From contig JAJYZB010000005.1 of NCBI GenBank assembly GCA_021800275.1, forward strand, positions 1-64,000: a DNA stretch of 64,000 nucleotides, given 5' to 3'. This document shows positions 11,499 through 60,609 of this stretch, one piece after another. The stretch comes from a bacterium (lineage in GTDB: Bacteria; Vulcanimicrobiota; JABDET01). The notes under the pieces were generated by a model. It did no database searches. It was not told the DNA's origin and was given only the letters and a program-made list of their open reading frames with translations. The position numbers and the translations under genes were made by a program. Position 1 is the first letter of the stretch, and every line of letters begins with the position of its first letter.

Positions 11499-12418
11499 TA
11501 TTTTCCTTCTCCTGCAGCCGCCTTTTTTACAATAGAAACAGAGGCGCTTGCTCCAATTCGGGTTGCTCCTGCTTCAACCATTTTTACGGCGGTTTCGTAG
11601 TCTCGAATTCCACCGGATGCTTTGACACCCATGTCTTCTCCAACCGTTTCTCTCATTAACGCCACGTCGTGAACAGTTGCCCCTCCTGGACCAAAACCTG
11701 TGGAGGTTTTCACAAAGTCAGCTCCTGCTTGTTTGGCTAATACGCAGGCTCTTACTTTTTCTTCATCATTGAGTAAAGCAGTTTCCAGAATTACTTTTAA
11801 AATTTTTTCATCAGCTGCTTCCCGAACATCCTGTATGTCTTTAAGAACTAGATCATTTTGTTTGGCTTTCAGCGCGCCAACAGCGATAACCATGTCAATT
11901 TCATCCGCGCCATTGGCAATTGCATCTCTGGTTTCCAGGACTTTTGTCAGAGTGGTCGTTGCTCCAAGGGGAAATCCTACCACTGTGCAAACTTTAACTC
12001 TGCTGCCTTTTATCAGGTCTTTGACAAGGCTGACCCATGATGGATTCACACAAACACTGGCGAATGTATGCTGCACTGCTTCTTTACAGAGTTTGATGAC
12101 GTCTTCTTTTGTGGCATCAGGTTTTAGAAGGGTATGATCAATAAGAGAGGCTAGATCTGCTCGGACAGAAGTCATTCCCAGTGCGCCGCCAATTCGACAC
12201 GCGCCTCCTCGGACAATTTGAGCGACTCTGTCTTCCAGTTTAGAGGGACAGTGGCCGCAGGCATTGCATTCTCCTGTTAGGGCCTCACAGGGGGATTGGA
12301 TATCAGCATGGGTCTGGATATTGACGTTTGGGGAAACGGCTGTTTGTGAGGCAATTGAATTTAGAACTTCTTTTGTAATTTCATCTACCAGTTTTTCAAG
12401 ATTATAATCCAGGCTCAC
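11495..12418 (-). CDS. deoC: deoxyribose-phosphate aldolase with encapsulation-type N-terminus
   Basis: DeoC splits 2-deoxy-D-ribose 5-phosphate into acetaldehyde and glyceraldehyde 3-phosphate. The TIM-barrel starts about residue 87 ([19 protein letters not shown]). The Schiff-base lysine is K237 in [13 protein letters not shown], with a second lysine in [10 protein letters not shown] and the acid in ADEIDMV. At 307 residues it is about 85 longer than ordinary DeoC. The extension begins with an amphipathic helix ([17 protein letters not shown]), a linker, then a cysteine cluster C44-x6-C51-x2-C54-x2-C57 and C74. The helix plus linker resembles an encapsulation peptide for a microcompartment. 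It is the last gene of the shell operon, coupled by ATGA. Confidence 0.93.
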
Positions 12419-12717
12419 CGCAGGTTTCTCCTTGTTTCATAAGAAGGGATCAGTTTGATTTGATCAACCACTCCTGCCACAACTGCTTCTGCGCAGGTTT
12501 TTTCGTCTTTCAAAGCGAGTCGTGCAGAACCTCCTTCATAAATCACCAGGACTTTGTCTCCGATTCCGGCATCAACAAGATCAATGGCTATAATGGTTTC
12601 TCCTGTTTTAGTCCCTTCAGCTAAGTCTATCCCTTCCACAATGAGCAGCTTTTTTCCTTGATAATCTTTTTCCTGGATGGTTGCCCAAAGGGAACCCACA
12701 ACTTCACCATAAGTCAT
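12415..12717 (-). CDS. microcompartment pentameric shell protein (EutN/CcmL family)
   Basis: This 100-residue BMC-P protein would cap vertices of a polyhedral protein shell. It shows the family's small beta-barrel pattern: [49 protein letters not shown] and GGSARLAL. The central A-x-D-x-x-x-A-G-x-G-D-x-V motif is present. It is one of three BMC-P paralogues in the operon and differs clearly from the others in its N-terminus, so the three are not interchangeable copies. ATGA overlaps link it to the previous shell gene and to deoC. Confidence 0.9.
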
Positions 12718-12983
12718 TCTATTTTGTTCATCTCTTTCACAATGCCAACAATTCCTAAATCAATAGGGGCATCTTCTGGGCGCCATGGCAGAGAAGCTTC
12801 TCTACCTTTTACTAAATAAACTAAATCTTGATCAGCGCACTGCACAAAATCTACGGCTGCAGCCGGGGAGCCTTCTTTTTTCCCCTGGTGGTTGATTAAC
12901 TGTACAATTCGAAGGGATGCCCCTTTTAATTTCTCATCTTTCTGTGTGGCTGTAATTTTACCTATGACTTTGCCGAGAATCAT
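12714..12983 (-). CDS. microcompartment pentameric shell protein (EutN/CcmL family)
   Basis: From the ATG at 12983 this is 89 residues: MILGKVIGKITATQKDEKLK, then LRIVQLINHQGK and AAAVDFVQCADQDLVYLVKG. The family's G-x-V-x-x-T-x-K-x-x-x-L start is clear. The usual AG-x-GD loop is changed to QCADQDLV, and the usual GSSAR after it is REASLPW. The open frame extends upstream to 13067, but that portion lies over rpiB. The 12983 ATG overlaps the rpiB stop as ATGA, matching the operon's other junctions. Confidence 0.88.
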   Translation of the reverse strand: MILGKVIGKITATQKDEKLKGASLRIVQLINHQGKKEGSPAAAVDFVQCADQDLVYLVKGREASLPWRPEDAPIDLGIVGIVKEMNKIE

Positions 12984-13432
12984 GATTTTAAACAACGCGC
13001 TTCGATATCTAGAATTTTTTTTACTCGTCGGGCATGGCGTGTTTCCACACAGGAGCAGGACAACCATGTTTTTACGATTTCCTGGGCAAGTCCTATTCCT
13101 AAAATTCTTCCGCCAAGAGTTAAAACATTGGCATCATTATGTTCGCGGGAATTTTTTGCCGTATATAAGTCATTGCAGAGGGCCGCTCTTATTCCAGGAA
13201 CTTTATTGGCTGTAATGGCGGATCCGATTCCTGCGCCATCAATGATAATACCGACGGATTCAGGAGTTTTACTGACGGCATCTGCCACTAAAAAGGCAAT
13301 ATCTGGATAGTCAACAGGATCAGAAGAATGAGTTCCAAAATCCAGAACTTGATGCCCTGACTGCTGCAGAAAAGGTTTTAAATTTTCTTTTAATTCGTAT
13401 CCTCCATGATCACTGCCTAAAATAATTATCAT
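12980..13432 (-). CDS. rpiB: RpiB/LacAB-family sugar-phosphate isomerase
   Basis: This 150-residue isomerase of the RpiB family interconverts aldose and ketose phosphates such as ribose 5-phosphate and ribulose 5-phosphate. The N-terminus IILGSDHGGYELKENLK holds the substrate-binding D-H-G-G. The cysteine usually found in the GTGIG region (CGTGIG) is replaced here: IIIDGAGIGSAITANKVPGI shows Asp at that place. RAALCNDLYTAKNSREHNDA follows as in the family. It starts directly after the aldehyde dehydrogenase stop. In sugar-phosphate-type microcompartment loci this isomerase accompanies DeoC; its exact substrate is not settled by sequence. Confidence 0.9.
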   Translation of the reverse strand: MIIILGSDHGGYELKENLKPFLQQSGHQVLDFGTHSSDPVDYPDIAFLVADAVSKTPESVGIIIDGAGIGSAITANKVPGIRAALCNDLYTAKNSREHNDANVLTLGGRILGIGLAQEIVKTWLSCSCVETRHARRVKKILDIEARCLKS

Positions 13433-14902
13433 TTAAATAATCCTGAAATAATCCACCAGTGTGCACCTGCGAAATCTCGTAAAATGGCGGGCGCTAGTAA
13501 TTCCTTCCCCTGTTGTAGTGCCAATAGTCATCGTGGTATGTCCTTCTCCACCAAAACCAAGTCCTGCTGAAGCGGGCCCGTTTTTCACAAAAATAGCGGT
13601 ATTGATTTGATGAGCCATTTGACTCAATCTTTCCACGTTTTTGGAATGCATGACTGCAGTGTGTCCGTACCCATGTTCTGCTTTAACAGCCCATTCGATC
13701 CCTTCCCAGACATCTTTAATTCTGGCTACAGGGAAAAAAGGCATTAACTGTTCTGTCATCACAAGAGAATGCGAGGGTTCTGCTTCACAAATAAGAAGGC
13801 GAACTGTTTCAGGCAGGTCAAGTCCTATGGCTTTAGCTAAAACATTTGCGTTTTTTCCTATGAAATCTCGATTTAAAACAGGTTCAGCGCATCCGCCGCC
13901 GCTCGGGCAGTTGAGAACAAGAGAGCACAGCTTATCTCTCTGCTCTGGGGTTAAGAGATAAGCTCCCTGTATCTGCATTTCAGAAATTAGTCTATCAGCG
14001 ATCGAATTTACCGCAAAACATTCTTTTTCTAATTGGCACATGACATTGTTGTCAAAACTCGAGCCCCAGACTATGTCTTTTGCGGCTTTAGGAATATCTG
14101 CGGTTTCATCAACGATAACAGGTGGATTTCCAGGTCCAGCGCAGATCGTTTTTTTACCGGACTGCATGGCTTGACGGACAACCCCCATCCCTCCCGTGAC
14201 TGCAAGAATTCTGATTCCCGAATGTTTCATCAGAGCCTGACTGGTTTCAAGGGTAGGTTCATTCACACTGGTCAATAAGTTTTTTGGACCGCCGCAGTCT
14301 TGAACCGCTTGATTTAAAATTTCCATGGTTTTAAGGGAGACTTTTTTAGCTTTTGGATGGGGATTGAAGACCACTGAATTGCCTGCAGAAATCATGGAGA
14401 TTGAATTATTAACAATCGTTGCCGCAGGATTGGTAGAAGGAGTGATGGATCCAATGACCCCGAATGGCGCCATTTCTTCAAGGGTTAATCCTCTGTCTCC
14501 CGTGCGTGCGATGCTGACTAAATCTTCCATTCCTGGAGTTTTGTCAGCCGCTAATAGAATCTTTTTCACTTTGTCTTCAACCCGCCCCATGCCGGTTTCT
14601 TGGACCGCCATTTCAGCCAGGGCTCTAGAATGATGGCGAGCCGCAATTCTCATGCCTTCCAGGACTGCTTTTCTTTTTTCAACGGTCATGGAGACCAACT
14701 CTGTTTGCGCTTTTCCTGCAGAATTCACAGCATCATCTAAAGTTTCAAAGATTCCGTTTCCAAGTTTTGAATTCCATTTTGTCTCAGTCGAAGAAGTCAG
14801 GACTGACGCAGGATTATTAGGGTTTCCTGGCTGAAGCTTCTGGCTGACTTTTGCCACCACTTCTTCAATGATTTTGTTGAGTTCAGATGGTGTAACCTGC
14901 AC
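13433..14902 (-). CDS. CoA-acylating aldehyde dehydrogenase of a microcompartment (PduP/EutE family)
   Basis: This 489-residue enzyme oxidises an aldehyde to its acyl-CoA with NAD+, here probably acetaldehyde from DeoC. The N-terminal helix TPSELNKIIEEVVAKVSQKL followed by a Pro/Ser/Asn linker is a typical encapsulation peptide. The catalytic core starts about residue 50 (GIFETLDDAVNSAGKAQTEL). The catalytic cysteine is C289 in SSFDNNVMCQLEKECFAV. GPASAGLGFGGEGHTTMTIG near the end is the usual cofactor-side motif. It follows a shell gene by six bases and precedes rpiB with no gap. Confidence 0.93.
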   Translation of the reverse strand: MQVTPSELNKIIEEVVAKVSQKLQPGNPNNPASVLTSSTETKWNSKLGNGIFETLDDAVNSAGKAQTELVSMTVEKRKAVLEGMRIAARHHSRALAEMAVQETGMGRVEDKVKKILLAADKTPGMEDLVSIARTGDRGLTLEEMAPFGVIGSITPSTNPAATIVNNSISMISAGNSVVFNPHPKAKKVSLKTMEILNQAVQDCGGPKNLLTSVNEPTLETSQALMKHSGIRILAVTGGMGVVRQAMQSGKKTICAGPGNPPVIVDETADIPKAAKDIVWGSSFDNNVMCQLEKECFAVNSIADRLISEMQIQGAYLLTPEQRDKLCSLVLNCPSGGGCAEPVLNRDFIGKNANVLAKAIGLDLPETVRLLICEAEPSHSLVMTEQLMPFFPVARIKDVWEGIEWAVKAEHGYGHTAVMHSKNVERLSQMAHQINTAIFVKNGPASAGLGFGGEGHTTMTIGTTTGEGITSARHFTRFRRCTLVDYFRII

Positions 14903-21995: not shown

Positions 21996-22000
21996 GCTGA

Positions 22001-23200
22001 ATGCGGTTCCTTTTAGTGCATCCATTTCTTTCTTTTTATGGGGGGGCTCAATTAGAGGTTTCTTGGATTGCAAAAGAATCTTTAAGACAGGGTCATCAGG
22101 TTACTCTTGTCAGTGAATTTGATAAAGATGGGTGTATAGACTCTTTGACAAGAGCAGGAGTATGTGTAAAATTATCTGAAAAGGCACGTCTTTCATCTTT
22201 GATTCAAGAAGAAGCCCAAAAAAGCGATGCAGTTGTGGCATTTAATTATCCCGCCACAGTCTGGTGCGCAGAAGCGAAAAAAAAATCCAGTTCATTTCCT
22301 CTTCTTTCCTGGTACTGCAATGAGCCTCCTAGAAATCTTTATGAGGCGATTCTTTCTTCTCATTATTTAAATTCGCGGGTTGACCCAAAGTTTTATTTGC
22401 CTTTTTATGCTTATTTTCAGGCGAAAAAAAATAGATTTTTTTTAGAGCAGGACCAGCAGGCTGTTTCTTGTTTTGATCAGGTCTTTTCTATTAGTCATTT
22501 TATTTCTGATTGCGTTCGACAGATTTATCATCTGGATTCTGAAGTCATGCCGCTGGGGGTAGGGGATACTGCTCCAGAAGACCAGAAGGAAGAAGAAGGC
22601 AGCTCCGTGAGAGAGAATATTCATTCATTGGAAAAGATTTTTTCTTTTTTTTCGCCTGCTGGCTTAGAACCGATAAAAAATTTTAAAACTATTTTCTCAG
22701 CTTATTATCAATTTTCAAAACAGATGAATAAATCGGGCAGAAAGGCGCAGCTCTGGGTAACAGGGGAGGGTCTGTGGCTCCCTGAAGCGAAAAAAATGTG
22801 GAAAAAAATGGGAGAAGAGGTTCAAATTTTGTTTTTAGGAAGGGTAGAAAGGGAAAAATTAAAAGACTTGTATTCACAATGTGATGCAGTTTTGTATGTT
22901 CCGATAGACGAGCCTTTTGGTCTTGTTAACTGTGAAGCTGGCTTGTTTAAGAAACCGGTGATTACAAGCTGTTATGGAGGTCCATCAGAAGTCGTGATTG
23001 ATCAAGAGACAGGGATTTTGGTTGACCCCTTAAATGAGCGTGAAATCGCAGCTCGTATGTTGTTTTTAGCAGAAAATCCCGAGCTCTGCGAAAAAATGGG
23101 AAAGACTGGCTTCTGCCGCATTTCATCAGAATTTTCTTTTGAAAAGTTTATGACCAGTTTTTTAAAAGGAATTTTGAGCTTGTTTAAGAAAAAAGAATGA
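22001..23200 (+). CDS. GT4-type glycosyltransferase
   Basis: This 399-residue GT-B fold transferase starts with MRFLLVHPFLSFYGGAQLEV, the usual N-terminal glycine-rich acceptor loop. The donor domain holds FFSPAGLEPIKNFKTIFSAY, LFLGRVEREKLKDLYSQCDA and the E-x7-E-like motif in EPFGLVNCEAGLFKKPVITS. It would transfer a sugar from a nucleotide donor, plausibly the GDP-sugar made by the preceding gene. It ends 15 bases before the infC start codon, so infC may be read from this transcript. Confidence 0.85.
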   Translation: MRFLLVHPFLSFYGGAQLEVSWIAKESLRQGHQVTLVSEFDKDGCIDSLTRAGVCVKLSEKARLSSLIQEEAQKSDAVVAFNYPATVWCAEAKKKSSSFPLLSWYCNEPPRNLYEAILSSHYLNSRVDPKFYLPFYAYFQAKKNRFFLEQDQQAVSCFDQVFSISHFISDCVRQIYHLDSEVMPLGVGDTAPEDQKEEEGSSVRENIHSLEKIFSFFSPAGLEPIKNFKTIFSAYYQFSKQMNKSGRKAQLWVTGEGLWLPEAKKMWKKMGEEVQILFLGRVEREKLKDLYSQCDAVLYVPIDEPFGLVNCEAGLFKKPVITSCYGGPSEVVIDQETGILVDPLNEREIAARMLFLAENPELCEKMGKTGFCRISSEFSFEKFMTSFLKGILSLFKKKE

Positions 23201-23204
23201 ACAC

Positions 23205-23210
23205 GGAGGT
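23205..23210 (+). promoter_or_regulatory. Shine-Dalgarno GGAGGT deciding the infC ATT start
   Basis: GGAGGT lies five bases before the ATT at 23216. An in-frame TGA at 23210-23212 closes the frame upstream. The only codons between that stop and the conserved IF-3 N-terminus are ACA and ATT, so this site fixes the start. Confidence 0.85.
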
Positions 23211-23215
23211 GAACA

Positions 23216-23755
23216 ATTAGTAAAGGCTATCGGATTAATGAAGAGATTTTCGGAAAAGAAGTGAGGTTGATTGATTCAGACAGCTCGCAGTTAGGGGTTG
23301 TCGCTACTGCAGAAGCGTTGAGACTGGCTAGAGAAAAAGATCTTGATTTAGTGGAAATTTCTCCCCATGGAAATCCTCCTGTTTGTAAGATCATGGATTT
23401 TGGGAAATTCAAGTACGCTCAAAATAAAAAGGATAGGGAAAGCCACAAAAAAAGAAAAGCGCAGCATTTAAAAGAAGTTAAATTGAAACCTAAAATAGAT
23501 CCGCATGATTTTTTAACCAAAAGCAAGCTTGTGGAGAGAATGGTAGGAGAAGGGGATAAAGTTAAGGTCATGATTGTGTTTAGAGGAAGAGAAATCATGT
23601 ATGCTGAACATGCGCAGAAACTTTTGGATAAGCTGGCACAAGGAGTATCAGAACATGCTTTTATTGAAAAACCAGCTAAGTTGGAAGGAAAATCTTTAAT
23701 CATGATCCTTTCACCAAAAGGAAAAACTTCATTGAGCGCGAAAGAAGGAGACTAA
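23216..23755 (+). CDS. infC: translation initiation factor IF-3, ATT start codon
   Basis: This 179-residue IF-3 promotes fidelity of start-codon selection on the 30S subunit. The N-terminal domain begins [20 protein letters not shown], then [40 protein letters not shown]. The C-terminal domain has [12 protein letters not shown] and [20 protein letters not shown]. The frame has no ATG, and the GTG at 23261 would remove conserved residues, so the start is ATT at 23216. A rare start lets IF-3 limit its own synthesis, as known for E. coli infC. rpmI and rplT follow in the classic order. Confidence 0.93.
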
Positions 23756-23756
23756 T

Positions 23757-23966
23757 ATGCCCAAAATGAAAACTAACCGTTCTGCATCGAAGAGGGTGCG
23801 AACAACTGGTTCAGGAAAATTGGTGAGACAGCGACAGTTCAGCGGCTGTCATCATATATTGGAAAAAAAATCTCCCAAGAGGAAGAGAAAATTTAGAAAA
23901 TTGGTAGAAGTAAGTTCAGGGGATCGAAAACGATTGATTAAAATCATCCCGTCTTTAGGAGCGTGA
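23757..23966 (+). CDS. rpmI: ribosomal protein bL35
   Basis: This 69-residue basic protein ([40 protein letters not shown]) matches the family in length and composition. It starts one base after the infC stop and precedes rplT, the conserved infC-rpmI-rplT operon. Confidence 0.95.
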
Positions 23967-23970
23967 CCCA

Positions 23971-24321
23971 GTGGCAAGAGTTAAAAGAGGTGTTATTAAA
24001 TTAAAGAAACGCAGAAAGCTGTTTAAGCTCACTAAAGGATATAGAGGAGCCAGAAGCAGAAGAATTAAAACCGCTCAAGAAGCTCTTCTGCACTCTCTGC
24101 AGTATGCTTTTGAGCATCGCAGACAGAAGAAAAGAGATTTTAGAAGATTGTGGGCTGTCAGAATTAATGCTGCCTGCCGAAACTTTGGGCTTTCTTACAG
24201 CCGTTTTATTTCAGGACTTAAGAAACAGGGTTTGATCTTAAACCGGAAAATGCTGGCAGAATTAGCGGTACAGGATGAGTCGGTGTTTAAGGAATTGATT
24301 GACCTTGCGCAGGCTTCCTGA
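23971..24321 (+). CDS. rplT: ribosomal protein bL20
   Basis: This 116-residue 23S rRNA-binding protein begins at a GTG (MARVKRGVIKLKKRRKLFKL) and includes KGYRGARSRRIKTAQEALLH, NAACRNFGLSYSRFI and NRKMLAELAV. Length and order are normal. Four bases separate it from rpmI. Its stop TGA is overlapped by the presumed non-standard start of the methyltransferase gene. Confidence 0.95.
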   Translation: MARVKRGVIKLKKRRKLFKLTKGYRGARSRRIKTAQEALLHSLQYAFEHRRQKKRDFRRLWAVRINAACRNFGLSYSRFISGLKKQGLILNRKMLAELAVQDESVFKELIDLAQAS

Positions 24322-25118
24322 TCATTGATTCTTCAAGAACGAATTTAATTCACATCACCAGCCGAGATAATCCTTTTATAAAAGAAATAGGAAGATTAAA
24401 GAAAATTCTTCCTGATGAAACAGGAAGAGTTTTTATTGAGGGAACTCGGTTAATTGAAGAGGGCTTTAAATCAGGGCTTTTCTTTGAATTTTTATTTTTA
24501 ACCCCCGAGAAGTTTGAGCGTTTGAAGGATGGGCTATTTTTTCAGAAATTTTCTGCTAAAATGAAAGTTTTTCAAGTGACTGATCAGATTATGAAATCTA
24601 TCAGTCTTGAAGAAACACCTTCTGGAATTCTGGCTGTTGTCAGGATTCCGCCCAAAACGGTTTCTCTGTCAGGAAGTTATTTTATCGCTCTCTGCGGAAT
24701 CCAGGATCCGGGAAATGCGGGTTCTCTTCTGCGAGCAGCAGAAGGAACGGGATTTTCCGTTTGGTTTTCTGAAGATACAGTTCACCCTTTCCACCCAAAA
24801 GTTGTAAAAGCTAGTATGGGATCTGCTTTTCGAGTCCCCTGTCAAAAGGGAAATTTATCGGCTTTTTTGTTGAAATTAAAAGAGAAAGGGGTATCTCTTG
24901 TTGGGTCTGGGGTTTCTGAAGGGATTTTTTACAAAGACTGGAAATGGAAACCCCCTTATTGTCTTCTTTTGGGATCAGAAGCCAGAGGACTCCCAGAATC
25001 AGTTAAACCTTTGATTGATGGGATGGTTGTGATTCCTCTCCAGGGGAAAGTTGAATCTCTAAATGTGTCTGCAGCCGGGGCGGTCCTTATGTTTGAATCC
25101 AGGAGCCAGTCTAAGTAA
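24318..25118 (+). CDS. TrmH/SpoU-family RNA 2'-O-methyltransferase, non-standard start
   Basis: The open frame carries an intact SpoU protein of about 266 residues. The substrate-binding N-terminal domain is visible (HITSRDNPFIKEIGRLKKIL, VFIEGTRLIEEGFKSG). The SPOUT knot shows the three motifs: GIQDPGNAGSLLRAAEGTGF, LLGSEARGLPES and IPLQGKVESLNVSAAGAVLM. No ATG, GTG or TTG occurs in frame before 24513, well inside the conserved domain. The likely start is a CTG at 24318 (CTGA overlap with the rplT stop) or ATC/ATT just after it. It modifies ribose in rRNA or tRNA. Confidence 0.85.
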   Translation: MIIDSSRTNLIHITSRDNPFIKEIGRLKKILPDETGRVFIEGTRLIEEGFKSGLFFEFLFLTPEKFERLKDGLFFQKFSAKMKVFQVTDQIMKSISLEETPSGILAVVRIPPKTVSLSGSYFIALCGIQDPGNAGSLLRAAEGTGFSVWFSEDTVHPFHPKVVKASMGSAFRVPCQKGNLSAFLLKLKEKGVSLVGSGVSEGIFYKDWKWKPPYCLLLGSEARGLPESVKPLIDGMVVIPLQGKVESLNVSAAGAVLMFESRSQSK

Positions 25119-25421
25119 TCCAGGCTGTGCAGGTCATCTCAGATTTTTGTCAGTGCTGAACAGGAGTTAATTTTTCGTAAGTGTGATCGTAAACCCGTTT
25201 GTAATATCCGGGACCATCCGGCCCGTTTGACCAGTAAGAATCCAGGGGTACATTACTGCCATTATAACAATAGTAGATGATTCTGTCAATCTGACTGAAT
25301 CGTCTTATTCTTCAGAACTGACAACTTCACCAGCCTGATGGCAGCAGGATGCGGATGAGAAAAAAGTATGTGACAGAGATCACGGACAGCTTACTAAAAA
25401 AGGGGTAAAATAAGAATAGAG
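25119..25421. other. intergenic region with one remnant frame
   Basis: This is about 300 bases between the methyltransferase and the exported Tyr/Gly-rich protein. It holds a minus-strand remnant frame (listed separately) and, near 25390-25420, an AT-rich stretch that could carry the promoter for the next gene. No tRNA or terminator is clear. Confidence 0.4.
25150..25311 (-). pseudogene. C-terminal remnant of an unidentified protein
   Basis: The minus strand is open for 53 codons and reads RIIYYCYNGSNVPLDSYWSN then GPDGPGYYKRVYDHTYEKLT and PVQH before the TGA at 25150-25152. Composition and the aromatic, glycine-rich pattern look like real protein sequence. There is no start codon, because a TGA closes the frame at 25312. 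I do not recognise the family. Confidence 0.35.
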
Positions 25422-25430
25422 GTGAAAAAA

Positions 25431-26198
25431 ATGAATAAGAAGGGGTTTTTGTTTTTATTGGCGCTCATTTTATTCTCAACAGTTGGCGGTTTTGCAAAAC
25501 CTGCTCAGAAAAATGTACCCATGAGGATTTACGTGAATCAGACCCGTTTTTATGGCAGCTATTTTGTGAGAAATCACAAAATTTATGTCAGAGCGGCATC
25601 ATTTAAAAATGCATTATATCTCCCTTCAAATTATTCTTTTCCCGAAAGAATTCAGATTATGAACCAGGGAAATTCGTACATTGATCTCAGAGCTTATGCG
25701 CGGGAAAATAGGGATACTGTGATGACGAATTGGAATACAGGGATTATCAATCTTTTCACAGTTCCTTTGTCAACAAATTCTTATTCTGCAGGTTATATGG
25801 GCGGCACCTCATTCCCTTCAGGCTATTATTCATCACCTCTGCAGCAGTCTTATGTTTCAGGCTATATGCCCCAGGGTTATGGGTCGGGCTACCAGGTCTA
25901 TGTCCCTGGACCGACAATAGTCGTTCCTCCTGCTTCTTCCGCTGATAGTTCCTGGTGTTTAGAACATATGTGTTCTCCAATCACTCATCGTCCTGAAGCA
26001 GCTCTTCCTCCCCCTGCGCTGACCTTAGAACCTCTTGTTGGCAATCCATGGTATAACTACCCTCGTTATGCTCCAGATCCTTATTATACACAGTATAATC
26101 CAACCATGTATAACCCTTATGGTTACTACAATGGATATGGTGGATATAATAATGGATATTTTGGGGGACAGCCTTTTGGCGGTACAATTTATCCATAA
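25431..26198 (+). CDS. exported Tyr/Gly/Pro-rich protein of unknown function
   Basis: From the ATG at 25431 (GAGGTG just upstream) this is 255 residues. The signal peptide is MNKKGFLFLLALILFSTVGG with cleavage after GFA. The next about 80 residues (IYVNQTRFYGSYFVRNHKIY, VRAASFKNALYLPSNYSF) recall the beta-rich start of stalk-like surface domains. The C-terminal about 150 residues are low complexity, dominated by Tyr, Gly, Pro, Ser and Asn (GYYNGYGGYNNGYFGGQPFG). Such tails are common in adhesive or self-assembling surface proteins. An intrinsic terminator follows. Confidence 0.75.
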   Translation: MNKKGFLFLLALILFSTVGGFAKPAQKNVPMRIYVNQTRFYGSYFVRNHKIYVRAASFKNALYLPSNYSFPERIQIMNQGNSYIDLRAYARENRDTVMTNWNTGIINLFTVPLSTNSYSAGYMGGTSFPSGYYSSPLQQSYVSGYMPQGYGSGYQVYVPGPTIVVPPASSADSSWCLEHMCSPITHRPEAALPPPALTLEPLVGNPWYNYPRYAPDPYYTQYNPTMYNPYGYYNGYGGYNNGYFGGQPFGGTIYP

Positions 26199-26216
26199 AT
26201 CAGCCTCTGGTACAAT

Positions 26217-26256
26217 ACAGCTCCTCCTCAATGGAGATTGGGAAGGAGCTGTTTTA
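26217..26256 (+). terminator. intrinsic terminator
   Basis: ACAGCTCCT (26217-26225) pairs with AGGAGCTGT (26244-26252), and a TTTTATT run follows the 3' arm. It ends the transcript of the Tyr/Gly-rich exported protein. Confidence 0.75.
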
Positions 26257-26279
26257 TTAATCCATAAAATAGCTTTATT

Positions 26280-27467
26280 GTGATTCGTTCTTTAAATTCT
26301 TTAAAGAAAATCGTTTATTTAGCTGCTTTTCTGCGTTCTACTGCAATCGGTTTCATCAGTGTTTTTTTAGGATTCTATTTTGTTGAAAGGGGATTTTCTC
26401 CATTTCTTTCAGGGATTTTAATCACTGCCGGTTTATTAGGAAATGCTTTTGCCACGTCTTTGATCGGTTTTCTCGGTTTTAGAGCAGATAGGAAAACTCT
26501 TCTGCTCTGCTACTCATTTGTCAGCGCCATTGGCGGAATTCTGATGTCTTATGAGTTTTCATTTGTTTTTCTGGTATTTATCGCGTTTTTTGGGATGCTC
26601 AATGGAATGGGCAAAGATCGGAGTGGAATTAGAGCTGTTGATCAAACCCTTCTCGCAGATGCCGTCGAACCTGGGAACAGGACCATGGTTTATGCTCACT
26701 ACAATATGTTAATGGACTCAGGACTAATTCTTGGGGCAGGACTGGCTGGGATCCCTAAACTTTTAACCTTTTATCACGGTTCTTTCAGTTTTGTGATTTA
26801 TGGAATTCTTTTTGCTCTCAGTGGGGTTTTATATACCTCAGCCTCTATTCCGAGGATCAGCGAGAAAAAAAAGGGTGAAAAACTAAAAATTCAACCTGAA
26901 ACTAAGAAAAAAATCAGAAAACTTTCTTTTTTATTTTCACTGGACAGTCTTGGAGGCGGTTTTTTAACAGCCAGCCTTGTATCATACTGGTTTTTCAGCC
27001 GATTTCATGAGTCAGCAGCAGTGGTGGCGGGTTTGTTTTTTTTAGCGAGAATTTTAAATCTGCTGTCAAATTACGGAGCAGTCTGGATCTCTAAACAGAT
27101 TGGATTGGTCAAAACTATGGTTTTTACCCATTTACCTGCCAGTGTGTGTTTGATTTTAGCCGCTTTTTCACCTTATTTCTGGTTAGCCGCTTTATTTTTT
27201 CTGATTCGAGAGAGCTTTATTCAAATGGATGTTCCAACTCGAGAGTCTTATACCATGGCTATTGTTGAACCCCATGAACGATCTTATGCTTCTGGGATCA
27301 CTAATGCGGTTCGGAATTTTGGGTGGACAATTCCACCGATCCTGGCAGGAGAGGGGATGGGGTTGTTTCAAGGATTTCCTCTGGTTGCTGGAAGCGCTTT
27401 AAAAATTCTTTATGATCTGCTGCTCTATGCTCAGTTTCGTCATCTGAAACCTCCTGAAGAAACATGA
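26280..27467 (+). CDS. MFS transporter of unknown substrate
   Basis: This 395-residue protein has 12 hydrophobic segments and a basic central loop (EKKKGEKLKIQPETKKKIRK, about residues 198-218). The first half holds GFLGFRADRKTLLLCYSF, the MFS loop 2-3 equivalent, and DRSGIRAVDQTLLADAV. I start it at the GTG at 26280; no strong ribosome-binding site is visible. It lies directly after the terminator and is the last gene before a cluster of small Asn-rich proteins. No substrate can be inferred. Confidence 0.78.
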   Translation: MIRSLNSLKKIVYLAAFLRSTAIGFISVFLGFYFVERGFSPFLSGILITAGLLGNAFATSLIGFLGFRADRKTLLLCYSFVSAIGGILMSYEFSFVFLVFIAFFGMLNGMGKDRSGIRAVDQTLLADAVEPGNRTMVYAHYNMLMDSGLILGAGLAGIPKLLTFYHGSFSFVIYGILFALSGVLYTSASIPRISEKKKGEKLKIQPETKKKIRKLSFLFSLDSLGGGFLTASLVSYWFFSRFHESAAVVAGLFFLARILNLLSNYGAVWISKQIGLVKTMVFTHLPASVCLILAAFSPYFWLAALFFLIRESFIQMDVPTRESYTMAIVEPHERSYASGITNAVRNFGWTIPPILAGEGMGLFQGFPLVAGSALKILYDLLLYAQFRHLKPPEET

Positions 27468-27598
27468 AATTTTGGACTTCTTTTTAAACCTTCTATTTTA
27501 GCTGCCTTGACTGGATGTTAACAACTTTTTTCTTTTAATCCCTTCTTAATTTTGGTATTCTGAATATAGAAGTTCAAATAAAAGAGGAGGAATTAAAA

Positions 27599-27898
27599 AT
27601 GAGTGATACAACAGTCAATACAGCAGGTGCAGCGGGAATGGCTTGTCCAAAGGTTTGTCCCGAAAGTTCTAATATCAATATTAAGCAGTTAAATGGGAAT
27701 CAGAATCAATCGAAAATTAATGTCTCTGCAGGTTCCAGTTTGCCAACATCAGATGTTTATATTGAACAGGGGAACTTTAACACTAATTCTTCTTCTGTTT
27801 CAGTCAATATGAGCACAGCCCCTATTGGAAAATCACAGGTTACAATTTACACTCACGATATTCCGGATGAAACCGGAACCTATAACGTTGTTGTATAG
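27599..27898 (+). CDS. small Asn/Ser-rich protein with curlin-like repeats
   Basis: This 99-residue protein has an excellent ribosome-binding site (GAGGAGG eight bases before the ATG). It has no signal peptide. After a short N-terminus with two Cys (ACPKVCPES) come two repeats of alternating polar and hydrophobic residues: NINIKQLNGNQNQSKINVSA and DVYIEQGNFNTNSSSVSVNM. The I-x-Q-x-x-G-N-x-N pattern resembles curlin repeats that stack into amyloid beta-helices. The last about 30 residues (KSQVTIYTHDIPDETGTYNV) are a separate strand-rich tail. I know no named family; the amyloid idea is inference from pattern. Confidence 0.65.
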   Translation: MSDTTVNTAGAAGMACPKVCPESSNINIKQLNGNQNQSKINVSAGSSLPTSDVYIEQGNFNTNSSSVSVNMSTAPIGKSQVTIYTHDIPDETGTYNVVV

Positions 27899-27916
27899 GA
27901 GTTAAAAGATAGTGGC

Positions 27917-27958
27917 CGCCCCACCGAAATGAGCCTATTTCGCGTGGGGGCGCGAAAT
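27917..27958 (+). promoter_or_regulatory. two mutually exclusive hairpins between the small repeat genes
   Basis: The segment ATTTCGCG at 27937-27944 can pair with CGCGAAAT at 27951-27958 (perfect 8 bp, loop TGGGGG). The same segment with the following GTGGGGGCG can instead pair with CGCCCCAC-CGAAAT at 27917-27930. The two folds exclude one another. The element ends 23 bases before the ATG at 27982. There is no T-run, so simple termination is unlikely. Confidence 0.5.
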
Positions 27959-27981
27959 GTTGAAAGGACAGGGGATGGAAA

Positions 27982-28374
27982 ATGGTAGGACAGATCAATA
28001 ATCGGATTATTCATTCTGACATTGGAGTGAATCGTTCCAATAACACGATGAGCACTAATCGTAGAGTCTGGAATGCAGATAATGCTATCATCAATGAAAA
28101 TAATGGAACCAATGATTCCTCTAACACGATCAACAGCCGCTCCTTTTTTGCTTATAATAAGATCATCAATATTTATCAATATTCAAACCCATATTATCCT
28201 CCTGTCTGCACAGGTTCAGGAAATACTGGTTGGGGAAACACAGGTTTCGGAAGCGGTCCATGGGCTCCTTATCCAAATCCCTGGACATGCACCAGTCCAT
28301 GGACCTGGTGCCCATGGAGTTTCTGTTTCTCTCCTTTTCTCTGGACGTTAGGTTCTTGTCTTCCTGTTTTTTGA
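27982..28374 (+). CDS. small Asn-rich repeat protein with Trp/Pro/Cys-rich tail
   Basis: This 130-residue protein is downstream of the paired hairpins, with GGGGATGGAAA before the ATG. Residues 5-50 form two about 24-residue repeats, NNRIIHSDIGVNRSNNTMST and DNAIINENNGTNDSSNTINS, sharing I-I-x4-G-x-N-x-S-N-T. The C-terminal about 60 residues are quite different: GNTGWGNTGFGSGPWAPYPN, then PWTCTSPWTWCPWSFCFSPF, very rich in Trp, Pro and Cys. There is no signal peptide. It is probably a paralogue in style of the 99-residue neighbour. Function is unknown. Confidence 0.6.
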   Translation: MVGQINNRIIHSDIGVNRSNNTMSTNRRVWNADNAIINENNGTNDSSNTINSRSFFAYNKIINIYQYSNPYYPPVCTGSGNTGWGNTGFGSGPWAPYPNPWTCTSPWTWCPWSFCFSPFLWTLGSCLPVF

Positions 28375-28566
28375 AATTAAATCATCATCAGTGCTGCCAG
28401 CTGCTTCAGCAGCAGGAACAGCATCAGTGCCAGTCCCAATTCCTGCTGTAACAACTGCTGTTCCTATGATTCCTGCAGCCTGACCAGAGGCATCCCATGG
28501 ATCATTCGTAAAGCTGTCAGCAATATTTTTTCCTATGTTTTTAGCCGCCTGATTTTTAAGACTCAT
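28348..28566 (-). CDS. possible small Ala/Gly-rich protein
   Basis: On the opposite strand, overlapping the end of the previous gene by 27 bases, a 72-residue frame reads KNIADSFTNDPWDASGQAAG then IIGTAVVTAGIGTGTDAVPA. The composition is protein-like with a glycine/alanine-rich hydrophobic middle. No convincing ribosome-binding site is seen ahead of the ATG at 28566. It may be real or a fortuitous open stretch. Confidence 0.35.
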   Translation of the reverse strand: MSLKNQAAKNIGKNIADSFTNDPWDASGQAAGIIGTAVVTAGIGTGTDAVPAAEAAGSTDDDLISKNRKTRT

Positions 28567-28643
28567 CAAGGATAAAGGCTCAATTTTAATTTCAAAGTTA
28601 ACAAAATGGCAGCAAATAGATGATGGAAATTACAGGATTACTT

Positions 28644-28652
28644 TGATATAAT
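28644..28652 (+). promoter_or_regulatory. extended -10 promoter of the PLD-like gene
   Basis: TGATATAAT is a perfect TG-n-TATAAT extended -10 element, 45 bases before the ATG at 28698. No good -35 lies 17 bases upstream, as is usual for extended -10 promoters. A GGAGAGGG ribosome-binding site follows. Confidence 0.6.
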
Positions 28653-28697
28653 AACACTAAGGGTAGGACAAGCTGTATAAAAGGAGAGGGTGTAATC

Positions 28698-30248
28698 ATG
28701 AATATTCCAAATTCTGGTCAGTCTAACGTTAATTCTTCACCGAATACGAATTGCAATCTTCCTGCAGTTCCCGCCAATGGAACAACGATTCAGCCTTTAA
28801 TGAATGCGGATCAAATTTTCCCTGCTGAATTGGCAGTGATTAATTCTGCTAAACCCGGCGGCAGTATTTATATGAGTCAATACACTCTCCCTACTCCAAC
28901 TGATGGCCCCTCTGTCGGAACTCCTGCATCCAATGCACAGAGAGATATTCTTTCAGCGATTGCAAAACAGATTAAAAATCATGTGAATGTCTATGTTGTG
29001 GCTGATAATGAAGCTCAAAAAAATGGAGGCACAAGAAATTCGGCTGCAATCCAGTGGTTGAAGCAGCAGGGAGCTTATATTCTCCCTTATCCTGCGCAGT
29101 ATGTGACTATTAATCATACAAAGTTTATTGGCAGCAGCAGTGGTTATGCTGTTGTTACCAGTGCTAATGAATCTCCCCATATGGCTGATTCACCAGACAA
29201 CAACACAGGATTTTTGTTTGCTGGAGCTGCAGCTCATAATGGAATTGTCCAGGCTTTTCTTCCACAGTGGAATTTTTCAGCGCAGCAGGATCCTACGGAT
29301 GCCTCTAATTATCCGACCCCAACGATTAACAATAAACTGATTCCAGACAGCAAAGTAACCTGGTTAAACACAGCTCCTGCTGCTGAAACCGGAGCAGCTC
29401 AGGATCAAACTCAGATTAAACAGGCTTATATGAATTTAATTCAAAAAGCGGCTCATGCTCCTTTAAATCCTGATGGAACAAAACCTTATTTGTATTTAGA
29501 GCAGTGGGATCTTTCAGATTCAGATTTAACCAATGCCCTGATTCAAGCTAAACAGACTAATCCTAATTTAGACATTAAAGTCATTATTGATCCTGATCAG
29601 TATCTCTGGGGAGAGCAGCATCCACAGACAAATGGACAGCCCAGTGATATTGTTTCAAGTTATAATACTTTAACACAAGCGGGTATTCAAGTTCGATTTG
29701 CTAATTTAAATCCCCATCCCCCTGGACCAGAAGGGAAATGGCCTCAGATTTTCCATGACAAATGGATCGAATTTAATGGTCAGGAAGTGATCAATGGCAG
29801 CGGAAACTTTTCGTGGGATTCTATGGAAGGCAATGATGGGAAAAAGCACAATCGGGAAGTGGATGTAGATGTAGTGGATGCTAATGCTGCTCAGGCTTAT
29901 ACCCAGAAGTTTTTAAATGATTGGAGTAATAACAGTTCATCTGATCCAAATGCAGCTTCACAAGGTGGAAATGCCCAGTCAGCCAATCAAGCCTACAATC
30001 CCGGGAACAGAGTCTCGAATGGTTTAGAAGAAATGGGTGGACATTCTGATAATGGATATTTTCCCAGATTCCACACTTATCTCAATACTGTTGGACAGCT
30101 TTTTCCATCTGAAACAGCTCCTGTTTCTTCTCCTTCCAGCATAAGTCTTTCTCAGTTTCCTTCAGTCTGGTCTAAATGGAATTCTAAAGATATGAAATTT
30201 ACGAATGATCCGGTGTTAAATTCCAGCCGATTTAAGTTTCCATTTTAA
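28698..30248 (+). CDS. phospholipase D-like (HKD) protein
   Basis: This 516-residue protein contains two PLD-superfamily halves. The first active-site motif is in VTINHTKFIGSSSGYAVVTS (H-x-K, then an S/N-rich strand). The second is in FHDKWIEFNGQEVINGSGNF with SWDSMEGND. The family hydrolyses or transfers phosphodiesters in phospholipids or DNA. There is no signal peptide or membrane segment. The first about 30 residues (NSGQSNVNSSPNTNCNLPAV) are Asn/Ser-rich like the small proteins upstream, and the C-terminal about 110 residues are a low-complexity Ser/Asn/Pro region. It has its own promoter. The substrate is not indicated. Confidence 0.8.
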   Translation: MNIPNSGQSNVNSSPNTNCNLPAVPANGTTIQPLMNADQIFPAELAVINSAKPGGSIYMSQYTLPTPTDGPSVGTPASNAQRDILSAIAKQIKNHVNVYVVADNEAQKNGGTRNSAAIQWLKQQGAYILPYPAQYVTINHTKFIGSSSGYAVVTSANESPHMADSPDNNTGFLFAGAAAHNGIVQAFLPQWNFSAQQDPTDASNYPTPTINNKLIPDSKVTWLNTAPAAETGAAQDQTQIKQAYMNLIQKAAHAPLNPDGTKPYLYLEQWDLSDSDLTNALIQAKQTNPNLDIKVIIDPDQYLWGEQHPQTNGQPSDIVSSYNTLTQAGIQVRFANLNPHPPGPEGKWPQIFHDKWIEFNGQEVINGSGNFSWDSMEGNDGKKHNREVDVDVVDANAAQAYTQKFLNDWSNNSSSDPNAASQGGNAQSANQAYNPGNRVSNGLEEMGGHSDNGYFPRFHTYLNTVGQLFPSETAPVSSPSSISLSQFPSVWSKWNSKDMKFTNDPVLNSSRFKFPF

Positions 30249-30306
30249 CTGGCGTATTTTAAGCAGGCAGGAAAATTGCTGGATGGCAATCAATAATTAA
30301 ATAATT

Positions 30307-30987
30307 ATGTTATTTTGTGAGAATTGCGGGGTAAAAAAAGAGGAGTCATCTCGATTCTGTTCAGAATGCGGGAAGCCATTTTCAGCCAATTCCATTCAGG
30401 GAAAACAAAGCGCTGAAAGTATATCTCCAGGAGTTAGTGGATGGACATGGTATTGGAGGACGTGGGCAGCTGCTTCTGTGAATCCTGCTGCCCTGTATCC
30501 TCAGCTTGGAAATCCAGGAACAAATGGGGAGGCTGTTAAGTTTTTTCTTATCACACAATTTATCTCAGGACTGGTTCCTGTCCTATTCATAGTGATAAGG
30601 AATCTGCATGCAGCAGCCAGCCCTGTCGGTCTAATTGTTATTCCTCTTGTTCTGTTAGGACTTATGGTTGTTGTTTTGGTTTCCTGGCTTTTTTTGTATA
30701 TTGGAGCGTGGTTGTTTAATTTTACCCTTTCAATAGTTGGAGGGGCTTCTGGTGGTTATCCTGCGACATTTCAAACTATGGCTTTTTCATCTGCGCCTGG
30801 AATTATTCCTTTTATTGGCGGATTATGGGTGCTTATCATGCTCATTGTCGGCTCAAGTCAAGCGCATCACACAGAAATTTGGCGTCCTATTGTGGCATTT
30901 ATTTTAGAGCTTTTCATGATCGTTTTTTTTGTGATGATTTGCTTTCTCCTTATCTGGGTTTTAGTTGTGGCAGTGCATCATTTATAA
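30307..30987 (+). CDS. zinc-ribbon membrane protein, Yip1-like
   Basis: This 226-residue protein starts with a zinc ribbon (FCENCGVKKEESSRFCSECG) and a short linker. About five membrane segments follow (residues 75-95, 100-125, 130-150, 160-180 and 195-220), with the layout of YIP1-type bacterial membrane proteins (WRTWAAASVNPAALYPQLGN, GGYPATFQTMAFSSAPGIIP). Its role is unknown. It is followed after 26 bases by another zinc-ribbon gene in the same direction. Confidence 0.7.
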   Translation: MLFCENCGVKKEESSRFCSECGKPFSANSIQGKQSAESISPGVSGWTWYWRTWAAASVNPAALYPQLGNPGTNGEAVKFFLITQFISGLVPVLFIVIRNLHAAASPVGLIVIPLVLLGLMVVVLVSWLFLYIGAWLFNFTLSIVGGASGGYPATFQTMAFSSAPGIIPFIGGLWVLIMLIVGSSQAHHTEIWRPIVAFILELFMIVFFVMICFLLIWVLVVAVHHL

Positions 30988-31013
30988 ACTAAAAAAACTG
31001 GAGGTGGATGGAT

Positions 31014-31559
31014 ATGAGTGATTTTTTAAACCGGGTGAAAGGGGTTGTTAACAAAGGGGTCACAACAGCATCAGTTAAGTTAAAGGAATCAGTCGAAATC
31101 GGTAAAATAGACACAAAACTCAAAAGTCTTTCCAGCGATAAAAATGAAAGAATTCTTGAACTGGGCAATATTGTTTACACTCTTTTTAAGCAAGGCACCT
31201 TGAAAGATCAGAGGACTAGAATTGAAGAAAAGTGCGGAGCCATCCAGGATATAGATCGAAAAATTCAAGATGCTGAAAATGAAATTATGCGGGTTCGTAA
31301 AGAAACAGAAGAATTTTTAGGCAGGACTCAGAGTTCTTTTTTAAGTGATATAAAGTGCAACTGTGGAAACATGATTAAACAAGGAGCAAAGTTCTGCACC
31401 AGCTGTGGCAGAAATGTTTCTGAGCTTCCTGTTGATCTCGAAAAAGAAAAATCTGTTCTTTCTTCTTGTTCTAACTGCGGCGCTCAGAGAACAAATACTG
31501 ACGCAAAGTTCTGCCAACAGTGCGGCAGTTCTTTTTCTCAGCCTTCTTCCCAGGCATAA
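31014..31559 (+). CDS. coiled-coil protein with two C-terminal zinc ribbons
   Basis: From the ATG at 31014, seven bases after GGAGGTG, this is 181 residues. The N-terminal half is helical and charged (FLNRVKGVVNKGVTTASVKL, then IQDIDRKIQDAENEIMRVRK), probably coiled-coil. The C-terminus has two zinc ribbons: CNCGNMIKQGAKFCTSCG and CSNCGAQRTNTDAKFCQQCG. It is likely cytoplasmic. Proteins of this shape are common but uncharacterised. It is probably co-transcribed with the Yip1-like gene. Confidence 0.7.
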   Translation: MSDFLNRVKGVVNKGVTTASVKLKESVEIGKIDTKLKSLSSDKNERILELGNIVYTLFKQGTLKDQRTRIEEKCGAIQDIDRKIQDAENEIMRVRKETEEFLGRTQSSFLSDIKCNCGNMIKQGAKFCTSCGRNVSELPVDLEKEKSVLSSCSNCGAQRTNTDAKFCQQCGSSFSQPSSQA

Positions 31560-31651
31560 GACTAAACCGTTTTTAAAGGTATTTTTAACAAAATGAAGAA
31601 AAAGAAAAAATTGACGAGAATAGACTGTTTTTTGTAAAGAGGTGATAGGAA

Positions 31652-31906
31652 ATGGCACATAAAAAAGGGATGGGAAGTTCACGGAATGGCAGAGATTCCA
31701 ATCCGCAGTTTTTAGGTGTAAAGGTTTATGGTGGTGAAAAAATAAAAGCGGGCTCCATTATTGTGAGACAGAGAGGAACAAAGATTTATCCTGGGGATGG
31801 AGTTGGCATGGGGAAAGACCACACGCTTTTTGCAAAATTGGACGGGATTGTTCAATTCGAACCTAGAGACGGAAAAAAGAGAGTCCACATTATTAAAACG
31901 GGATGA
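31652..31906 (+). CDS. rpmA: ribosomal protein bL27
   Basis: This 84-residue protein sits at the peptidyl-transferase centre. The sequence [20 protein letters not shown] then [20 protein letters not shown] and [20 protein letters not shown] is unmistakable. The AGGTG ribosome-binding site is good. The usual partner rplU is not adjacent: the preceding gene is a zinc-ribbon protein, so rpmA stands alone here. The start is not of the cleaved-extension type seen in Firmicutes. Confidence 0.96.
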
Positions 31907-31912
31907 GACGAT

Positions 31913-33130
31913 TCATCCTCCCCATATAATTTTCCCCTTTTTATTGATGTATTCGATATTTCCATTAGATCTGACAGCAGCGATTCCGTTTATAAATGGG
32001 AATGCAGCATTAAATTGAGGGGTAATCACAAAATTTCCTTTTTTATTGATGTACCCCCATTGACCCCCATTTGACAGTTTTACCGCAGCAAGCCCTTCGT
32101 TGAAAGGGAATGCTCTAGAGTACTGCGGAGTAATGACAAGGTGTCCTTTTATATTGACATATCCCCATTTATTTCCATATTCTACAGCGGCGAACCCTTC
32201 AGTAAAGGGTTCAGCAATGTCAAATTGAGGTGGAATGACAAAAGAACCACTTTTATTAATGTACCCATCTTTTCTTCCTGACTCCGCTGCAGCAAGTCCT
32301 TCTGAAAAAATTTCCGCGAAGTCAAATTGTTCATTGATCACAGTGTCACCACTCCTATTGATGTAGCCCCATTTTTCTCCCGAATTTACTGCAGCTAATC
32401 CATCATGAAAAGAACCTGCGCCATTAAATTGAGGATTTAAAATATAATTTCCCTTTTTATTGATATAGCCCCACAGATTTCCTATTTCTACGGACGCCCT
32501 TCCTTCTCTAAAAAAACCACCATTGTCATAAAGAGGATTAATAACCCACTTTCCTTTCGAATTAATGAATCCCCATTTATTTCCAACCGGAACAAGAGCT
32601 AATCCATCTGAAAATGGATAGCAAGTGTTGTACTGAGGTGAAATAGTCCATTTTCCACCGAGATTAATATAACCGCATTTTCCATTAGTCGTTAAAGAGA
32701 CTGGATCTAAGCCCTCGTGAAATTTTCCGAAATCTTCTAAGCGAAGAAATGCAAATCCTTCAAAATTGTCTTGATACATATTAGCGGTAATCTGTGAACC
32801 ATCAAAAGTCCATCCAAAATGGGGTGGAATGACCATTTTCCCTTCAGAGGTAATAAATCCCCATTCATTGTTTAATTCTACGGGATAGCGCGCATTTCGA
32901 TTTTTAAAATATTTATTTAGTATTGAGAAGCCAATGATTCCAAGAACAGCAAGAAAAACAACGACTAGAATCATGATCAATGGCAACTGCGATTTTTTCT
33001 CTGAACTTTTTGGGACTGGCAGATTTTTTGCCTCAGCAGCGGGATAAGTATCAGATTTTCCGCCGCACTCAGGGCAGAAAGTATCGCTTTCTCCCAGTTT
33101 TGCTCCACAGGAACCGCAAAATTTTGCCAT
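31913..33130 (-). CDS. zinc-ribbon, single-TM protein with WG repeats
   Basis: From the ATG at 33130 (GGAGGTG seven bases upstream) this is 405 residues. The order is an N-terminal zinc ribbon (FCGSCGAKLGESDTFCPECG), a membrane helix (LPLIMILVVVFLAVLGIIGF, about 49-68), then about ten WG beta-hairpin repeats of roughly 33 residues. Examples are KWGFINSKGKWVINPLYDNG and KWGYVNIKGHLVITPQYSRA. WG-repeat proteins are usually surface or periplasmic and of unknown function. It converges on rpmA with six bases between stops. Confidence 0.85.
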   Translation of the reverse strand: MAKFCGSCGAKLGESDTFCPECGGKSDTYPAAEAKNLPVPKSSEKKSQLPLIMILVVVFLAVLGIIGFSILNKYFKNRNARYPVELNNEWGFITSEGKMVIPPHFGWTFDGSQITANMYQDNFEGFAFLRLEDFGKFHEGLDPVSLTTNGKCGYINLGGKWTISPQYNTCYPFSDGLALVPVGNKWGFINSKGKWVINPLYDNGGFFREGRASVEIGNLWGYINKKGNYILNPQFNGAGSFHDGLAAVNSGEKWGYINRSGDTVINEQFDFAEIFSEGLAAAESGRKDGYINKSGSFVIPPQFDIAEPFTEGFAAVEYGNKWGYVNIKGHLVITPQYSRAFPFNEGLAAVKLSNGGQWGYINKKGNFVITPQFNAAFPFINGIAAVRSNGNIEYINKKGKIIWGG

Positions 33131-33350
33131 TCTCAGCACCTCCACAGGTTTTCAAGACAAATTTTACCTCTTTCTCCACAAGTTTCAATATAGATTATTA
33201 AATTTTAACAGAGAGAGGCAGAAATCCTACGCGTTACTGATGCTCGTAAAAATTAATTTAAAATTTTAATTGAACACTTTCAAGTCAATCGGTTCTAAGG
33301 AATTTTCATGGAATTTGCGGAGTCTTGTGGTGGCTGCAGAAATATAAAGC

Positions 33351-34097
33351 TCAACTTTCATATTTCAATGAAACCAAAGCTCCTGCCAGCATTGCGATGA
33401 AAAATAAAATTAGAAAAGCAGAACTGATAAAATACGGAAACTGATGCAGATGCATCATTACACCTCGCAGCAGATCAACTCCATAAGTGAGCGGATTCAA
33501 GATCGAAATGATATAAAGCCAAATAGGGATTCCGTGAAGAGGGAAAATGGCTCCGCTCAAAAAATAGAGGGGCATTATAATGAAATTCATGATCGCCCCA
33601 AATCCTTCAAAACTGGTCATCCTGGCTGCGAGAATGATTCCAAGTCCTGTTAAAGACATACTGACCAGAAACATGACCACCAGACAGATTAAAACTTCAT
33701 TGAAACTGATGTGGACTCCAACAACAGGGGCGAATAAAAGCACAAACATTCCTTGAATCATGGCAGTGGTGCTTCCGCTCAGACTTTTTCCTAAGACAAT
33801 CCATGTTCTTGGGATAGGGGCTGCCAGAATTTCTTTTAAAAATCCGAATTCTCTATCCCAAATGATTGAGATTCCGGAGCCAATGGAAGTAAAAATTAAC
33901 GTCATGGCAATAACACCTGGAAAAACAAATTGAATATAATTAAATCCATGAATATTTTTAAAAGAGGGGCGAAGCCCCATTCCAAAAGCAAAAAGCCATA
34001 AAGCCGGCCTGAAAAGAGCCGATAAAAGTTGGCTTTTTTCCCGGAAAAAGCGAAGAACATCTCTGTACCAAATGATAAAAATAGGGGTTAAATTCAT
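33351..34097 (-). CDS. ABC-2 type transport permease
   Basis: This 248-residue membrane protein has six helices of the ABC-2 (DrrB/NodJ) family. A short cytoplasmic start (IWYRDVLRFFREKSQLL) is followed by PALWLFAFGMGLRPSF and the conserved loops ILAAPIPRTWIVLGKSLSGS and MPLYFLSGAIFPLHGIPIW. It partners the ATPase encoded just upstream, which it overlaps by ATGA. The pair likely exports a small hydrophobic compound, polysaccharide or lipid; sequence cannot choose. Confidence 0.88.
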   Translation of the reverse strand: MNLTPIFIIWYRDVLRFFREKSQLLSALFRPALWLFAFGMGLRPSFKNIHGFNYIQFVFPGVIAMTLIFTSIGSGISIIWDREFGFLKEILAAPIPRTWIVLGKSLSGSTTAMIQGMFVLLFAPVVGVHISFNEVLICLVVMFLVSMSLTGLGIILAARMTSFEGFGAIMNFIIMPLYFLSGAIFPLHGIPIWLYIISILNPLTYGVDLLRGVMMHLHQFPYFISSAFLILFFIAMLAGALVSLKYES

Positions 34098-60488: not shown

Positions 60489-60567
60489 TAAGGAGAGGGA
60501 TTTTTTATCAGGTCTTAGATTTAGCCAATCAATACCATGATCTGGATTATAGATATTTAGCTTGCAG

Positions 60568-60586: not shown

Positions 60587-60609
60587 TAAGGAAAGGAGGT
60601 TTGAGTTTT

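Follow-up and report, generated by a model that had tools for sequence, protein, structure and literature searches.

The window analysed here is a stretch of 64,000 nucleotides from contig JAJYZB010000005.1, and it carries on the forward strand two adjacent small genes, P1 (27599..27898, 99 aa) and P2 (27982..28374, 130 aa). Both were recovered where a preliminary description had placed two leaderless proteins with curlin-like tandem repeats. A strong ribosome-binding site, GAGGAGG, lies immediately 5' of the P1 ATG, and upstream of this start the frame offers no other usable ATG, GTG or TTG. The best 15-residue hydropathy values in the N-terminal regions are 0.80 for P1 and 0.21 for P2, compared with 2.37 for an exported Tyr/Gly-rich protein encoded nearby (25422-26198); a Sec leader or N-terminal hydrophobic segment was found in neither protein in either species of the genus, which agrees with the description. 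The exported protein is not next door to the pair as had been described, since an entire MFS transporter gene (26280-27467) intervenes between it and P1. On the other side P2 is adjoined, as described, by a PLD-like protein (28698..30248, forward strand, PF13091 E 1e-19), which also has no Sec signal.

Both P1 and P2 are genuine genes, since the sole other available species of the genus (record JAKAVV010000001.1) has both of them in the same gene order, namely exported protein, transporter, P1, P2, PLD and a zinc-ribbon gene. P1 is 89% identical to its orthologue with a dN/dS of 0.076, and P2 is 83% identical over aligned columns with a dN/dS of 0.135 (Nei-Gojobori for both), so that both proteins are under purifying selection. 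The P2 proteins of the two species differ in length by 10 residues, which fall in a Gly/Asn linker only. Of the 149 genomes covered by phylum-wide profile searches, two contained P1, and P2 was recovered from those two alone. One further match to the P2 profile (E 0.006) was in a frame with three stops and was dismissed as low complexity. Another genus of the family is represented by a genome that is 67% complete, in which P1, P2 and the PLD gene are all absent and only the MFS gene was recognised at an otherwise non-syntenic locus. No P1 was found in viral contigs or plasmids and no P2 in phage records, the collections searched differing between the two proteins; outside the phylum, cellular genomes were scanned with the PLD protein only. 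The two leaderless repeat proteins thus form a conserved pair that is known to date from a single bacterial genus.

P1 has an Ala/Cys-containing N-terminus (residues 1-23), after which come two well-defined 27-residue repeats and probably a third, degenerate one. Its best ungapped self-match is at offset 27, with a score of 41 against a shuffle mean of 23.4 (p=0.0025). Repeat 1 (residues 24-50, 27668..27748, forward strand) reads SNINIKQLNGNQNQSKINVSAGSSLPT and repeat 2 (residues 51-77, 27749..27829, forward strand) reads SDVYIEQGNFNTNSSSVSVNMSTAPIG; the register of both comes from the repeat search and their starts were picked by the curlin-arch profile presented below. The probable third repeat (residues 79-99, 27833..27895, forward strand), SQVTIYTHDIPDETGTYNVVV, is placed by the register on the basis of S-x-V-x-I-x-T, 28 residues past repeat 2, and of low-confidence AlphaFold2 strands in the same region. 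Comparison of repeats 1 and 2 revealed that all eight identities (8/8) fall at odd positions, 1, 5, 7, 9, 11, 13, 15 and 19, and that the Ile/Val exchanges between the repeats at positions 3 and 17 are odd as well. The chance of such one-parity matching is 0.002 for eight positions and 0.00015 for ten with the Ile/Val exchanges counted. The resulting pattern is S-x-psi-x-I-x-Q-x-N-x-N-x-N-x-S-x-psi-x-V with varying even positions, and it is also kept in the orthologue.

Since the identities are all on alternate residues, the conserved residues would share one side of the chain when it is extended, as in a beta strand. This one-face pattern is what stacked solenoid coils with an Ile/Val core and Gln/Asn ladders would require, and from it we infer the fold itself. 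The hydrophobic/polar alternation that had been attributed to both proteins is significant in P1 (p 0.0016-0.0036) and is not found in P2 (p 0.94). Repeat expansion, which the preliminary description had named beside pattern conservation as something to look for in homologues, was not seen: the pattern is strongly kept in the one known orthologue but the number of repeats is constant, and a 27-residue profile of the P1 repeats detected additional copies in neither species' genome.

P2 (forward strand) is made up of a 27-residue repeat domain (residues 1-72) and a Trp/Pro/Cys-rich tail (residues 73-130, 28198..28371) with 7 W, 10 P, 5 C and no charge; the tail is as it had been described, and charge is absent from the final 70 residues of the protein. 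Within residues 1-72 the best self-match is at an offset of exactly 27, with a score of 43 against a shuffle mean of 25.0, and was matched in 0/400 shuffles. Repeat 1 is NRIIHSDIGVNRSNNTMSTNRRVWNAD (residues 7-33, 28000..28080) and repeat 2 is NAIINENNGTNDSSNTINSRSFFAYNK (residues 34-60, 28081..28161); N-x-I-I occurs three times, at 7, 34 and 59 (shuffle p 0.002), the third copy starting from N59. The G-x-N turn reported for both proteins is present in both P2 repeats (G15-V-N17 and G42-T-N44) and missing from both P1 repeats, which have NGNQN and NFNTN. Similarity between the P1 and P2 repeats is marginal (p 0.06, and 0.74 for the orthologue). Comparison of the two species showed that every W, P and C in the final 38 residues of P2 is invariant.

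In the noncoding sequence 5' of P1, a 30-bp block (27507..27536, forward strand), TTGACTGGATGTTAACAACTTTTTTCTTTT, is identical in both species and may be a control site; most of the surrounding spacer is not identical between the species, and the first 19 bases of the block occur once in the window. A conserved hairpin hiding the P1 ribosome-binding site was considered and rejected, the z values of -1.5 and -1.2 not being significant. Between P1 and P2 there is a GC-rich hairpin (27913-27960) whose inner part occurs once in the window, and in its place the second species has a 50-nt AT-rich spacer. About 220 bp between P2 and the putative promoter of the PLD gene (28375-28595) are missing from the second species; this segment is single-copy in the genome and holds most of a minus-strand Ala/Gly-rich ORF (28348-28569). 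It is followed by a block conserved 5' of the PLD gene, GTTAACAAA (28596-28616). An Rfam scan of 22000-34000 gave no match.

The PLD gene is syntenic in the second species and has its own promoter-like site upstream (28624-28652), a kind of site that is at least as frequent in shuffles as in the region; its membership in a unit with P1 and P2 is unproven. Gene tables of PLD relatives in other families showed no P1/P2-like neighbour at three loci of one genome (G003) and at one locus of another (G010). At least two of the three G003 relatives are leaderless by eye, and one of the three is encoded beside a protein that by eye resembles a clostripain-type protease. The case for a surface or matrix assembly unit made of P1, P2, the exported protein and the PLD protein, as had been suggested, is weak: positive evidence for it was not found, and three of the four proteins, the PLD protein included, are leaderless. 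Elsewhere in the window a bacterial-microcompartment-like set was recognised by eye at 11495-14902 (DeoC-like aldolase, EutN/CcmL-like shell protein, RpiB-like isomerase and aldehyde dehydrogenase), as was a stressosome-like module at 60562-62938 (RsbR, RsbS, RsbT and RsbX-like).

Scans of P1 and P2 against Pfam, NCBIfam, PHROGs and PADLOC gave nothing beyond chance, and a PDB sequence search gave chance-level matches only. The curlin profile PF07012, proposed earlier as a check on the repeats, matched neither P1 nor P2 at E<=10 and nothing across the whole genome at the same threshold, while an E. coli control scored. A search for a csgG-like export gene, proposed likewise, gave no match to CsgG (PF03783) at E<=1 in this genome, which is 98% complete. 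The minimal repeat motif of curlins is X6-Q-X-G-X2-N-X10 (PMC3521004), and QxGxxN is found in neither P1, P2 nor their two orthologues. Membership of P1 and P2 in curli is therefore not supported, there being no PF07012 match, no QxGxxN, no Sec signal and no CsgG in the genome.

We also compared P1 with the curlin unit, which consists of N-$-psi-$-psi-$-Q, an X-G-X-X arc, again N-$-psi-$-psi-$-Q and a second X-G-X-X arc; in E. coli CsgA its first Asn is replaced by Ser (PMC10192328). In P1 the order, which occurs twice, is S-$-psi-$-psi-$-Q, an arc of 5 residues, N-$-S-$-psi-$-V and an arc of 8 residues. Relative to the curlin kernel the first motif is thus complete in both repeats, the second lacks only its last Q, which is replaced by V, and the first arc is one residue longer. 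Two occurrences of this arch template were counted in P1 and two in its orthologue, and no other open frame among the 539 scanned contained it twice. An arch profile built on the repeats of E. coli K-12 CsgA and CsgB, with arc lengths left free, picks exactly P1 residues 24 and 51 (z 3.9, p 0.001 combined; p 0.009 and 0.016 with CsgA or CsgB alone), p-values which flatter P1 because the template and the freedom in arc length were picked after seeing P1. The combined profile was not significant on the P1 orthologue (p 0.07), nor on P2 when its N-terminal domain was shuffled alone; for scale, CsgB scores z 7.9 against the CsgA profile. Judged by these profiles P1 appears closer to the curlin arch than chance and far below the likeness among true curlins, and P2 is not demonstrably curlin-like. 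The term curlin-like thus retains some substance for P1, as regards the arch and not membership.

P1 shares with CsgA and CsgB the tandem S-$-psi-$-psi-$-Q followed by N-$-psi-$-psi, with conserved Gln and Asn on what would be the inward face, and the locus resembles curli in having two adjacent repeat-protein genes. The P1 repeat differs in its length of 27 residues instead of 22-23, in a first arc without the X-G-X-X signature, and in its number of two or three where curlins typically have four or more. The pair differs from curli by the lack of a Sec leader, of csgG in the genome and of a profile match.

AlphaFold2 models from two-sequence alignments had a pLDDT of 34 for P1 and 31 for P2, while curlins average 83 (PMC10192328); the models are uninformative, and speak neither for nor against an arch fold. 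The low-confidence strands predicted in P1 (26-29, 40-43, 53-56, 67-70, 77-83 and 91-98) happen to follow the 27-residue register in the first two repeats.

Export of the Fap subunits relies on an operon dedicated to it, with FapF as the exporter. The FapC/FapB functional amyloid of Pseudomonas shares with P1 and P2 the presence of few imperfect repeats, in its case three, with conserved Asn/Gln and with linkers in between (PMC12822426). The FapC repeats differ in adopting a Greek-key arch and in their long linkers, and the general Pfam, NCBIfam and PDB searches revealed no similarity of FapC or FapB to either protein.

Our preferred reading, to which we give a probability of roughly 0.38, is that P1 and P2 are small structural proteins that lack a Sec leader and form a genus-restricted pair, P1 being a short curlin-like stack of beta-arches and P2 its partner. 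P1 would comprise two, probably three, strand-arc-strand units of 27 residues, whose conserved faces would stack unit on unit into Gln/Asn ladders and an Ile/Val core, each face consisting of S, psi, I, Q, N, N, N, S, psi and V. The stack would be a short beta-solenoid, the open ends of which may permit head-to-tail self-association. P2 would join it through its 27-residue-repeat head and, as a guess from composition alone, its uncharged tail could bind membranes or other hydrophobic surfaces or be cross-linked by disulphides. Where in relation to the cell, inside or outside, the pair would act is likewise a matter of inference. The beta-arch reading is favoured by the 27-residue repeat in both proteins, by the one-parity identities and alternation of P1, by the arch template and the CsgA/CsgB profile on P1, by the odd-position pattern in the orthologue, and by purifying selection and synteny. 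Against it count the p of 0.07 in the orthologue, the non-significance in P2, the pLDDT values far from those of curlins, the presence of only two or three arches, the marginal likeness of P1 to P2, and the lack of evidence of export or assembly genes.

Alternatively, P1 may be an ordinary small soluble all-beta domain of three tandem hairpins, sandwich-like, accompanied by a largely disordered low-complexity P2, with no fibres formed, the two being lineage-specific genes with an unrelated or regulatory function. The few repeats of P1, the uninformative models, the divergence of both proteins beyond any Pfam, NCBIfam, PHROG or PDB match, the weak curlin likeness of the orthologue and the missing strand alternation in P2 make this explanation quite possible. 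However, the exact one-face conservation in P1, including three Asn, is seen more typically in stacked solenoid coils than in hairpins, and the strong selection on the P2 tail argues against mere disorder. A bolder form of the structural reading, which we consider unlikely though credible, is a leaderless functional-amyloid pair independent of curli, in which P1 would form fibres of Asn-ladder repeats that are capped or anchored by the P2 tail, in a lineage without curli genes.

Leaderless Cys/Tyr-rich spore-coat proteins are small, lineage-specific and encoded by tandem gene pairs. P1 and P2 share the absence of a leader, the small size, the restricted distribution and the tandem arrangement, P2 has a Cys/Trp/Pro-rich tail, and the pair has a leaderless PLD neighbour, so they might be coat or envelope proteins that a lysing or enclosing mother cell would deposit on a resting cell or an internal body. 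This is improbable, as no resting-stage genes were recognised nearby and the SpoIVA ATPase (PF09547) was unmatched in the genome at E<=0.01 with a positive B. subtilis control, which indicates that a Bacillus-type endospore is not made.

More improbable still is an intracellular amyloid-signalling pair of the HET-s/NLR or BASS kind, in which the two proteins would share a motif, one would template the other and the PLD protein would be the effector. The motif of BASS pairs is common to the C-terminus of a Bell-domain protein and the N-terminus of an NLR encoded next to it. BASS motifs are 20-40 residues long and occur in neighbouring genes (PMC8086366), and P1 and P2 are likewise leaderless, adjacent and built on a common 27-residue period of amyloid type, with a PLD-domain enzyme downstream. 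However, no gene for an NLR or a Bell-domain protein was recognised in the window, whose ORFs were mostly read by eye, neither P1 nor P2 matched a PADLOC defence family, the likeness between their repeats is not convincing, and the P1 repeats are in tandem and make up most of the protein. True curli, with P1 and P2 as CsgA/CsgB-type subunits exported to the surface, can be set aside as extremely improbable: the gene arrangement recalls csgB-csgA and the first P1 motif fits S-$-psi-$-psi-$-Q, but the profile, CsgG, leader and QxGxxN are all missing, and only about 2% of CsgA-bearing genomes are without CsgG (PMC10192328) with about 2% of the present genome missing.

Should P1 not stack, the pair would simply add to the conserved orphan loci of an uncultured lineage. 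If stacking occurs as the preferred beta-arch reading predicts, P1 would represent a minimal curlin-like arch protein, one that has arisen without the curli secretion apparatus. This would illustrate how short a path can lead from an orphan gene to an ordered beta-solenoid, and would widen the sequence definition of such repeats to include units of 27 residues with an Asn-rich arc.
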